Shown here: positions 5,277 to 40,005 of the stretch, one piece after another
How the letters are laid out: the number at the start of each line of letters is the position of its first letter
Numbering within the stretch: the stretch's first letter is position 1
Source: Candidatus Treponema equifaecale
Lineage (GTDB): Bacteria; Spirochaetota; Spirochaetia; Treponematales; Treponemataceae
Reading direction: 5' to 3'
Length of the DNA: 41,288 nucleotides
Assembly: GCA_018064905.1 (NCBI GenBank)
Contig: JAGHUJ010000029.1
Location: forward strand, 1 to 41,288
The notes under the pieces: model-generated
Told to the model about the DNA's origin: nothing
Seen by the model: the letters and a program-made list of their open reading frames with translations, nothing else
Database searches by the model: none
Position numbers and translations under genes: made by a program

Positions 5277-5364
5277 GGGGCAGGGATTGTAAGGGCGCGT
5301 AGCGTTGGCACAGCCAATGAAGCGAAAGCGGAACCCTGAAAAGCCCGGTGGCAGAGCCAGCCCC
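5277..5364. repeat. Structured intergenic element, family F2 copy 1
   Basis: Outer GGGGC/GCCCC, second stem CAGGG/CCCTG, hairpins TTGGC-ACA-GCCAA, GC-GAAA-GC, TGGC-AGA-GCCA; shares layout with 18505-18598. Confidence 0.7.
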
Positions 5365-5379
5365 CCATTTGGAGACAAT

Positions 5380-19410: not shown

Positions 19411-19444
19411 CTGTCTTTTGTAGTTTAGTTCCTGTAAAATTTGT

Positions 19445-19471
19445 GGTGGTTTCGAGGGCCTCAACCACCGC
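19445..19471. repeat. Minimal GGTGGTTTCGA...TCAACCACCG hairpin between convergent genes
   Basis: GGTGGTT (19445-19451) pairs with AACCACC (19463-19469). Confidence 0.7.
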
Positions 19472-20427: not shown

Positions 20428-21825
20428 ATGAAGCTTGGCTTGTCTAAAAAAGATGAAAAATTCAGGGAGTTTTCGCTGAACGGAAACATGTTCAGGGTAA
20501 TTCTGTACGTGTGCATTCCTCTGGCACTTTACCAGAGCCTTACACAGGTTTTCAAGGTGTTCGATACAATGATGGCGGCTCACATCAGCGCAACTGCAGT
20601 TTCATCCGTTGCATATATTTCACAGATTCAGCTTATGCTTGCGGCTCTTGGAAGCGGACTTGCAGTTGGTGCCAGCATAAAGGTGAGCGAAGCATTTGGT
20701 GCAGGTGACTATGAGCTTGTAAGCCGCCGCGTTTCCACAATGATTGCAATGTGTGCCTTGTTTGGAGGAGCAATTCTGGTGATTCTTCTTCCGGCTTCAA
20801 AAGCCTTTTTGCGATTTATGAAAACTCCAGAAGAATTCATTGACATTGGAACAACCTATTTCAGAATAGAAATTCTGGCTCTTGTTGTAACTTTCTTCAA
20901 TAATATATACATCGCCATTGAACGAGCCCGCGGAAATTCAAAGAAAATTCTCTGGCTTAACATGGGAATCGTTGTTACAAAGCTGAGTTTTACCGCCGTT
21001 TTTGTTTACATTCTTCACTGGGGTGTTACTGCCATTGCCGTTGCAACTTTAATCGCTCAGCTTTCCGTGCTTTTTATTGCAATGTACAGCCTCCTTAAAA
21101 AAGACAATGTTTTCAGCTTTTCAATGGGAATGGTTTCATTTAAAAAAGAAATCACAATGCCAATGCTTAAGCTTTCCTTCCCTGTAATGATTGAAAAAGC
21201 TGCCTTTGCCGTTGGAAAAGTAATTGTAAACGCAATGTGTACCCTTTACGGGCCTCAGACTGTGGGTGCTCTGGGAGTTTCAAACAACATCGGTGGAATT
21301 ACCACAATGCCTCAGGCGGGATTTCAGGAAGGTGGAAGTGCAGTAATCAGCCAGAACCGTGGTGCAAAAAAGTTTGACCGAACAATGAAGGCCTTCTGGT
21401 GTGTTCTCATCTGCAATCTGATAATCGGCGTGGTTTTGATGACAACTTCTATTCTTTGCATTGAATACATTTCAAAATTTTTCGCAGGAAAGGATGTGGC
21501 TTTTCAGGAAATGATCAAGGACATTTACCGTTACGAAGCCTGGGGAGCAATTCCTCTTGGGGTTAACGCATCGGTTCTGGCTTTGATGTATGGTTTTGGC
21601 CGAACCCGTGTTACACTTTTTATGAATTTCTGTAGAATTTTCCTTTTCCGTGTGCCGGTTTTGATGGGATTGCAGAAGTTTACGGATTTTGGCCGTGAAA
21701 GTGCCGGAATTGTAATGGGGGTGAGCAATATGTTGAGCGGTCTTCTGGCGCTGGTTCTTGGAATTACAACAATTCTTTCTATTAAAAAGAATCTTGCAAA
21801 AGAAGTTCAGGAAGAAAATAAATAG
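20428..21825 (+). CDS. MATE-family multidrug/solute efflux transporter
   Basis: 465 aa, about 12 hydrophobic segments, MATE-like architecture (VFDTMMAAHISATAVSSVAY, PQAGFQEGGSAVISQNRGA). Confidence 0.9.
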   Translation: MKLGLSKKDEKFREFSLNGNMFRVILYVCIPLALYQSLTQVFKVFDTMMAAHISATAVSSVAYISQIQLMLAALGSGLAVGASIKVSEAFGAGDYELVSRRVSTMIAMCALFGGAILVILLPASKAFLRFMKTPEEFIDIGTTYFRIEILALVVTFFNNIYIAIERARGNSKKILWLNMGIVVTKLSFTAVFVYILHWGVTAIAVATLIAQLSVLFIAMYSLLKKDNVFSFSMGMVSFKKEITMPMLKLSFPVMIEKAAFAVGKVIVNAMCTLYGPQTVGALGVSNNIGGITTMPQAGFQEGGSAVISQNRGAKKFDRTMKAFWCVLICNLIIGVVLMTTSILCIEYISKFFAGKDVAFQEMIKDIYRYEAWGAIPLGVNASVLALMYGFGRTRVTLFMNFCRIFLFRVPVLMGLQKFTDFGRESAGIVMGVSNMLSGLLALVLGITTILSIKKNLAKEVQEENK

Positions 21826-21839
21826 AGATTTTGAAAAAA

Positions 21840-21968
21840 GGGCACTACGGCTTCGCCGCCGCTACGTCCGCCCTTCGCTAACGCTCATTCTAAAGCAGTT
21901 CTGGTGGTTTCGACTGAGCTCAACCACCGCCACAGCTTTAGAACTACGGGGCTACCATCGCTAGTGCA
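21840..21968. repeat. Structured intergenic element, family F1 copy 1
   Basis: GCACTA/TAGTGC outer, TTCTAAAGC/GCTTTAGAA, GGTGGTT/AACCACC, CGGC-TTC-GCCG. Confidence 0.75.
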
Positions 21969-21988: not shown

Positions 21989-23338
21989 ATGGAAGTTACA
22001 TTGGAACAGTTTGGCGGTAAAAATGACGGTGTTTTTAACAATATGAATGCCTTTGCCATGGCCTTTAACACACTTGCCAGAAACGGAGGCGGAAAGCTTC
22101 TGGTTACTGAAGGAGTGTGGCTTACAGGACCAATGGACATTCCATCCGATACAACGATTGAAATTTCAGAGAAAGCCGAAATTCGATTTTTGAACGATTA
22201 CAAATATTATCCACCAGTTTATACCCGCTGGGAAGGCTGTGAATGTTACGCAATGCATCCGCTGGTTTATGCAAACGGGGCAAAGAACATCAAGATTACA
22301 GGAAAAGGCACTTTGAACGGATGCGGTGAACCCTGGTGGAAACTGGCACTTGCAAAGCGTGACGACCAGATGGAACCAATTGAACCAGTTGAAAAGCTGT
22401 TCGCATCGTTGAATCCAGATTACAAAAATCAGCCGGGTGGCGGCGGTGGAAGGGAAAGTCAGTTCCTTCGTCCAAGCATGATTGAATTTGCAAACTGTGA
22501 AAACATTACCCTTGAAGGCGTAAAAATCATGAATTCACCTTTCTGGACAATTCATCCGCTTTATACAAAAAATCTGGTTCTCAAGGATTTGTATGTAGAA
22601 AATCCCTACGAAGCACCAAATACAGACGGAATCGACATTGACTCCTGCAAGGATGTTCAGATTTTGAACTGCTATGTATCTGTTGGAGACGACGGAATCT
22701 GCCTTAAATCTGGTTCAGGGCCAGACGGAGTACGCTGCGGTGTTCCAACGGAAAATGTATTCATCAAAGGCTGTACGGTTCGATTTGCCCACGGAGGAAT
22801 CGTTCTTGGCTCGGAAACCGCAGCGGGAATTCACAATGTAACAGCCGAAGACTGCGATTTGAACGGAACAGACAGAGGAATCAGAATCAAGTCTAGAAGA
22901 GGAAGGGCCGGTGATTTGTCTGGAGTTCACTTGAAGAACATCACAATGGACAACACGCTCTGTCCGATAGCCATAAACATGTACTACAGCTGCGGTGAAT
23001 ACGATCCAAAGTCATCATTGTTCAGCCTTGAACCACAGCCAGTAACAGAAACGACCCCAACTTTAAAAGACGTAACGATTGTAAATGTAAAGGCAAAAAA
23101 TTGCCGTGCCAGTGCAGGTTTGATAGCAGCGCTGCCAGAAGTTCCAATTGAAGGCCTTGTAATCCGTGACTGTGAATTCAGCACAGATGAAACTTCAGAA
23201 GAGTCCCCAATGAGAAGCGACATGTTCTTTGGCTTGCCAGAAGTAAAAGAGAAATCCTTCAGAATAATAAACGCAAAGAATGCAGTTTTTGAAAATGTGA
23301 AGGTGACAGGACCGAAAGACGCGTTTATTTATGGATAA
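21989..23338 (+). CDS. Glycoside hydrolase family 28 (polygalacturonase-like), no signal peptide
   Basis: NTDGIDIDSCKDV, VGDDGICLKSG, AHGGIVLGSE, RGIRIKSRRGRAG catalytic motifs. Confidence 0.93.
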   Translation: MEVTLEQFGGKNDGVFNNMNAFAMAFNTLARNGGGKLLVTEGVWLTGPMDIPSDTTIEISEKAEIRFLNDYKYYPPVYTRWEGCECYAMHPLVYANGAKNIKITGKGTLNGCGEPWWKLALAKRDDQMEPIEPVEKLFASLNPDYKNQPGGGGGRESQFLRPSMIEFANCENITLEGVKIMNSPFWTIHPLYTKNLVLKDLYVENPYEAPNTDGIDIDSCKDVQILNCYVSVGDDGICLKSGSGPDGVRCGVPTENVFIKGCTVRFAHGGIVLGSETAAGIHNVTAEDCDLNGTDRGIRIKSRRGRAGDLSGVHLKNITMDNTLCPIAINMYYSCGEYDPKSSLFSLEPQPVTETTPTLKDVTIVNVKAKNCRASAGLIAALPEVPIEGLVIRDCEFSTDETSEESPMRSDMFFGLPEVKEKSFRIINAKNAVFENVKVTGPKDAFIYG

Positions 23339-39877: not shown

Positions 39878-40005
39878 CGCACCAGCGATTGGAACCCCGT
39901 AGTTCTAAAAATACGGCGGTGGTTGAGCCTAGCGAAACTACCAGAGTATTTTTAGAATGGAGCGAAAGCGGAAGGGTGTAAGTAGCGGCCCGAAGGGAGG
40001 TGCCA
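39878..40005. repeat. Structured intergenic element, family F1 copy 2 (inverted relative to 21840-21968)
   Basis: GCACC/GGTGC outer, TTCTAAAAATAC/GTATTTTTAGAA, GGTGGTT/AACTACC, CCC-GAA-GGG. Confidence 0.75.

Follow-up and report, generated by a model that had tools for sequence, protein, structure and literature searches.

The locus at 21.8 kb raises the question of what kind of structured element lies between two unrelated genes of Candidatus Treponema equifaecale, and why its stems should be paired at all. The window is the whole stretch analysed here, 41,288 nucleotides long. A sequence-only reading had proposed that the element has a second copy at 39.9 kb with compensatory differences in its stems, and that it is either a non-coding RNA or a mobilised REP/MITE-like hairpin. 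Both copies are present: BLAST with copy 1 recovers the one at 39.9 kb (E=1e-17, 78% identity). The folded strand is minus for the copy at 21.8 kb and plus for that at 39.9 kb.

Copies in the window and architecture of the element

A covariance model of the element core, R1, was made from 11 copies with the structure supplied by hand; its scores of 103 and 93 bits for copies 1 and 2 are those of sequences that both belong to its training set. Judged by this model, the resemblance far exceeds chance. The window contains the following features.

20428..21825, plus strand: flanking gene for a MatE-family transporter (Pfam PF01554, E=1.5e-37)
21989..23338, plus strand: flanking gene for a glycosyl hydrolase of family 28 (Pfam PF00295, E=1.3e-42)
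21840..21967, minus strand: element copy 1, whole, from P1 to P1 plus the unpaired CC tail (GG at 21840-21841 on the plus strand)
21858..21962, minus strand: conserved core of copy 1, with P2 and its 3x3 loop, the variable P3 and the P4 GNNA hairpin (R1, E=1.4e-23 in the window)
21903..21928, minus strand: REP-like hairpin GGTGGTTGAGC..GTCGAAACCACC, which forms the end of P3 in copy 1 (BLAST and reading)
39879..40004, plus strand: element copy 2, whole (R1 core 39884-39989, 93.5 bits)
5277..5366, plus strand: element copy 3, divergent, with an extra small hairpin, P1 GGGGC/GCCCC and a CC tail (read directly; R1 match at about 5282-5349, 24.8 bits, E=4.8e-4)
19444..19471, minus strand: stand-alone REP-like hairpin, GGTGGTTTCGAGGGCCTCAACCACC on the plus strand (read directly; partial R1 match, E=0.18)

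Copy 1 thus lies, as had been claimed, between the stop of the MATE gene (21825) and the start of the GH28 gene (21989), and Pfam supports both assignments.

The element is about 90-130 nt long and is described here 5′ to 3′ on the folded strand. A 5-bp outer stem (P1) is followed by an A and by stem P2, whose internal loop places G-N-A opposite G-N-A. The branch inside P2 consists of P3, a very variable hairpin of 10-60 nt, and P4, a short hairpin of the form TGAGC-GNNA-GCGAA. Beyond P4 the strand runs back through the second half of P2 and GAC to P5, a small hairpin that varies, and closes with the 3′ arm of P1, followed in most copies by an unpaired CC. The conserved letters are mainly those of the junctions and loops; in the stems, paired letters change together. 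The loop of P4 reads GNNA, its third position being a pyrimidine in 47 of 82 cases, and the sequence of P1 differs from copy to copy (GCGGT, GCGTT, GCGCT, GCACC and others).

Related element types carry a small hairpin added before P3 or have a different 3′ part. A variant whose outer stem is CGCC/GGCG, and which has a further conserved segment on its 3′ side (GGTCGAGTTAGCC...TGGTAGAGC...ACCGTCC), was seen at nine loci (L075, L076, L109, L115, L120, L123, L160, L085 and L099). It is mostly co-directional with the next gene and could be a different functional class.

Support for a maintained fold

The three compensating stems reported for the pair of copies are all there: the outer stem is GCACTA/TAGTGC in copy 1 and GCACC/GGTGC in copy 2, the central stem has 9 bp in the former and 12 bp in the latter, and the small hairpin is CGGC-TTC-GCCG and CCC-TTC-GGG, respectively. 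The same behaviour extends to many more copies. In a first set, 96 distinct sequences from loci found by pattern, 91.8% of the pairs are standard and 268 double-sided changes were counted, compared with 79 after shuffling; the covariation score is 0.358, against 0.096 for shuffled alignments and at most 0.063 when the pairing partner is slid, the signal being lost with a shift of 1-3 columns. A second set from six genomes gave 93.4% standard pairs, 360 double-sided changes (104 shuffled) and a score of 0.548 (0.136 shuffled, at most 0.081 slid). Some loci occur in both sets, which are therefore not independent, and the model structure guided the fitting of each alignment, so that the pair counts lean towards it. 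P1 provides a cleaner test of the fold, because it was outside the covariance model: in 49 of 58 copies the 3′ arm exactly complements the 5′ arm of that copy, but it complements the 5′ arm of another copy in 4.2%. The predicted DNA folding energy is only modestly better than that of shuffled sequences (z about -0.8 to -2.4). Covariation, together with the complementarity of P1 within rather than between copies, strongly supports the original proposal that a fold is maintained by compensatory changes.

Distribution and genomic surroundings

The suggested covariance-model search of Treponema genomes did find further copies. R1 detects about 26 copies in the 2.8-Mb assembly (E below 0.01), and others occur across Treponema. 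BLAST of copy 1 against the whole genome found the element nearly in full seven times and in part five times, besides numerous short matches to one 28-nt hairpin. In this genome P3 of the near-full copies ends in the REP-like hairpin GGTTGAGC..GTCGAAACC, which is also found alone at about 25 places.

Among sampled genomes of the same genus 42 of 59 have the element, with up to 32 copies per genome, and it was found in none of 40 genomes from 26 other genera of the order. Named matches are almost all from Treponema, mostly ruminant MAGs, and a pattern scan of a species-wide collection returned nearly exclusively Treponema or other Spirochaetes, including T. ruminis and T. berlinense. A locus labelled actinobacterium (L092) and another (L157) have no model match and look like chance, as does a single match in a viral contig, which lies inside a coding sequence; the phages and plasmids searched gave no match. 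The family is best read as restricted to one genus, Treponema, and among the open-access papers searched we found this repeat described nowhere for Treponema.

Copies are intergenic, in either orientation, and lie beside unrelated genes; with simple ORF-based calls, all four arrangements of gene and element occur (25, 18, 12 and 7 cases). In copies selected for a CC tail, the flanks outside P1-CC are AT-rich and show no target duplication above shuffled sequences. Within single genomes, copies whose cores are 90-100% identical differ in P1 and P5, each of which is still paired; for two copies of one genome (L296 and L297) the core is 100% identical. This is the pattern expected if gene conversion homogenises the cores. 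Orthologous copies in two genomes (L066 and L298, neighbouring proteins 99% identical) differ almost only by P3, which has been replaced as a whole. At the coaE-polA, gatC-gatA and galE sites, named from inspection of the proteins, copies have stayed in place and in the same orientation in species that share 57-84% identity in the neighbouring proteins, and the stems of these copies have changed in compensation. Such retention could mean that the copies are under constraint or that they are renewed again and again.

At the L297 site, one related genome is without the complete 161-nt intergenic insert; because other repeats adjoin the element there, its ends are not base-precise. Three other candidate empty sites were too diverged or out of register, and none of the candidates examined was clean and base-precise. 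In the scanned loci for which no full model match is listed, no ORF that would indicate an autonomous version was seen inside a hairpin loop. Among the neighbours of the element there is likewise no recurrent transposase or protein family resembling an autonomous partner; the largest neighbour cluster comprises, by eye, generic ABC-transporter-like proteins. At two loci, L181 (G000:C72) and L090, GGGCGGA(C) of the element is directly followed by the end of an insertion sequence (GGACCCCAAAAGTTGGACAC or similar) that looks, by eye, IS3-like. Since the loci belong to different genomes, this suggests recurrent insertion into the element.

Nature of the element and comparison with known systems

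In RNA stems G-U pairs are common and the mirror A-C mismatches are rare. The stems of the element are almost free of both. P1 has 466 Watson-Crick, 5 G-T and 4 A-C pairs; P1, P3 and P5 together have 1472, 39 and 46 (n=1591) with no strand bias (p=0.52); and P2a and P2c have 1072 Watson-Crick pairs with at most 2 G-T and 3 A-C. Wobble pairs thus make up about 2% in the element and about 15% in the stems of tRNAs encoded at these loci, a small control of 11 tRNAs (16 G-T and 1 A-C among 108 pairs). cGNNAg loops and tandem sheared G-A pairs are stable DNA motifs. The rare wobble and the GNNA rather than GNRA loop argue for folding as DNA more than as RNA, and judged from these sequence features the element is more likely to fold as DNA. 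P3 alone behaves differently, with G-T exceeding A-C by 11 to 0 in one count and by 37 to 7 in the other, where the first pair was left out; one strand may therefore be the folded one, which fits RNA as well.

The main alternative is that the element is a structured non-coding RNA, or a leader or processing element of mRNAs. Many loci would then be transcribed, and the junction nucleotides would bind a protein or ligand. The very strong covariation, the branched fold with its conserved junction and the P3 mismatches are all compatible with this, as are the constant orientation of several orthologous copies and the position of some copies directly upstream of a ribosome-binding site. However, orientation to genes is mixed overall, neighbours share no function, the wobble frequency is far from that of tRNA stems, and the P4 loop breaks the GNRA rule. 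Rfam 15, searched at gathering and permissive thresholds in the window and the loci, places nothing on the element, so that the suggested comparison with Rfam did not reveal a known family, and inspection by eye revealed no promoter or terminator common to the copies. We regard an RNA as unlikely, though still a serious contender. Of the two options offered by the sequence-only reading, the data lean towards the REP/MITE-like DNA repeat, as the copies are dispersed, intergenic, free in orientation, without a consistent neighbour and almost wobble-free.

The pairing might also be kept by mutation bias alone, through palindrome-templated repair and gene conversion, in sequences with neither function nor current mobility. 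Near-strict Watson-Crick pairing without strand bias, the exchange of cores between copies and the replaced P3 of the L066/L298 pair could be explained in this way, but arm-to-arm repair does not account for P4, the CC tail or the junction letters that are conserved though unpaired, and copies are retained at the diverged orthologous sites. This makes mutation bias as the sole cause improbable. Mobilisation as a REP/BIME by a RAYT (Y1 HUH transposase) or an IS200/IS605 element is slightly more doubtful again. Hairpins, GTAG motifs, a CC(A) tail and the lack of target duplication do resemble GTAG/CGTC REPs (PMC3733652), and Y1_Tnp, present in 14 of the 59 genus genomes, occurs in 13/42 element-positive and 1/17 negative ones, an excess that is weak and confounded by assembly quality. 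Yet 29 of the 42 positive genomes show no Y1_Tnp, including the copy-rich G036, G048 and G051; of 22 Y1 loci none has a full copy less than about 1.5 kb away, one locus giving a partial match (E=0.8); and conservation lies in the core of the element instead of at a tag plus stem foot. A direct RAYT/Y1 association is mostly refuted, and the transposase link that had been considered was found neither at Y1 loci nor among the element neighbours.

Integron attC sites are single-stranded and recognised by shape, with a stem sequence that is free to vary. Since 20 of the 59 genus genomes carry integron integrases over the cut-off, the copies might be attC sites or orphan cassette sites, but this is hardly credible: in about 190 kb of sequence surrounding integrases, the genuine attC arrays of the genus (CTAACA...GTTAGG) differ in sequence and structure, the model finds only one element near integrases (L325) and none in the L318 or L322 arrays, and the elements are scattered singly in both orientations. 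The genus's own arrays thus lead us to reject an attC identity. L318 and L322 are themselves cassette arrays of gut Treponema, with attC beside full-length integron integrases.

With modest confidence, we favour a non-autonomous dispersed palindromic repeat, REP/BIME- or MITE-like, of one Treponema genus that acts mainly at the DNA level. One strand, exposed as single-stranded DNA, would fold into the cloverleaf and be recognised by its shape. Copies would be dispersed by an enzyme that probably acts on single strands, which is proposed because target duplication is absent. Cores may afterwards be swapped between copies through gene conversion, with P1 and P5 diverging but staying paired owing to selection or to palindrome-templated repair; effects on neighbouring transcripts would be secondary, as for REPs. 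Against this mobile-repeat explanation, no mobilising enzyme was found at Y1 loci, integrase loci or element neighbours, and retention at coaE-polA, gatC-gatA and galE exceeds what is expected for freely moving neutral repeats. The lack of a clean empty site among the candidates, the G-T excess of P3, the small size of the tRNA control and the modest gain in predicted DNA folding energy also count against it. More tentatively, the element could be genus-specific mobile or host-domesticated DNA read by shape alone, in which a protein would read the folded single strand at its junction letters and its sheared G-A/GNNA motifs, so that the stems could drift freely, and in which the mobiliser would be neither a Y1 transposase nor an integron integrase. 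The element makes a good, if unproven, candidate for a repeat, mobile or regulatory, that is recognised by its shape. If it were a second attC-like shape system, hundreds of natural variants in dozens of genomes would make shape-based DNA recognition testable; if true, spirochaetes may yield a transposition enzyme not yet described or a new class of structured RNA.

To our knowledge, few dispersed bacterial repeats keep a structure so strongly with an almost free stem sequence, attC being the textbook case. Like attC sites, the element conserves shape above sequence and keeps its unpaired positions, but it has no R boxes and lies outside cassette arrays. TD-2 RNA (RF03162) is also a Treponema-associated structured family, with one strong and one weaker match in element-bearing loci (L107:6539-6627 and L143:3266-3360, one over the gathering score); it differs in its place and its three separate hairpins with GGA loops, and does not overlap the element. 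GTAG/CGTC-tagged REPs are short dispersed intergenic palindromes with short unpaired tails, often CCA, and CGTC REPs, which have no known transposase, have been reported from Spirochaetes (PMC3733652). An array of CGTC-tagged REP-like units (GATTCCGAATCAAGTTCGGAATGACG) lies at L115:1-150, and another intergenic repeat family (GGCGTTGCGGGC...GGGGGTAGCGACCAACGNAGTGGGCGCG...GGGGGAGACTTCCCCC) occurs at L301:1970-2091, L091 and L064. The element is multi-copy, extragenic and palindromic like RAYT REPs. In contrast to GTAG/CGTC REPs, it is a branched structure conserved in its junctions and not in stem or tag sequence, with no GTAG or CGTC 5′ tag at its end and no fixed tag outside the variable P1. 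With BIME/MITE composites it shares multi-hairpin intergenic units without an ORF, in many copies and variable between related species, whereas a classical DDE-type MITE would have sequence-conserved terminal inverted repeats and a target duplication, neither of which is seen in the element, as its outer stems differ between copies. Because the defining features of RAYT-REPs, MITEs and attC sites were tested and are not those of the element, it is best filed among the dispersed palindromic repeats, apart from these three.
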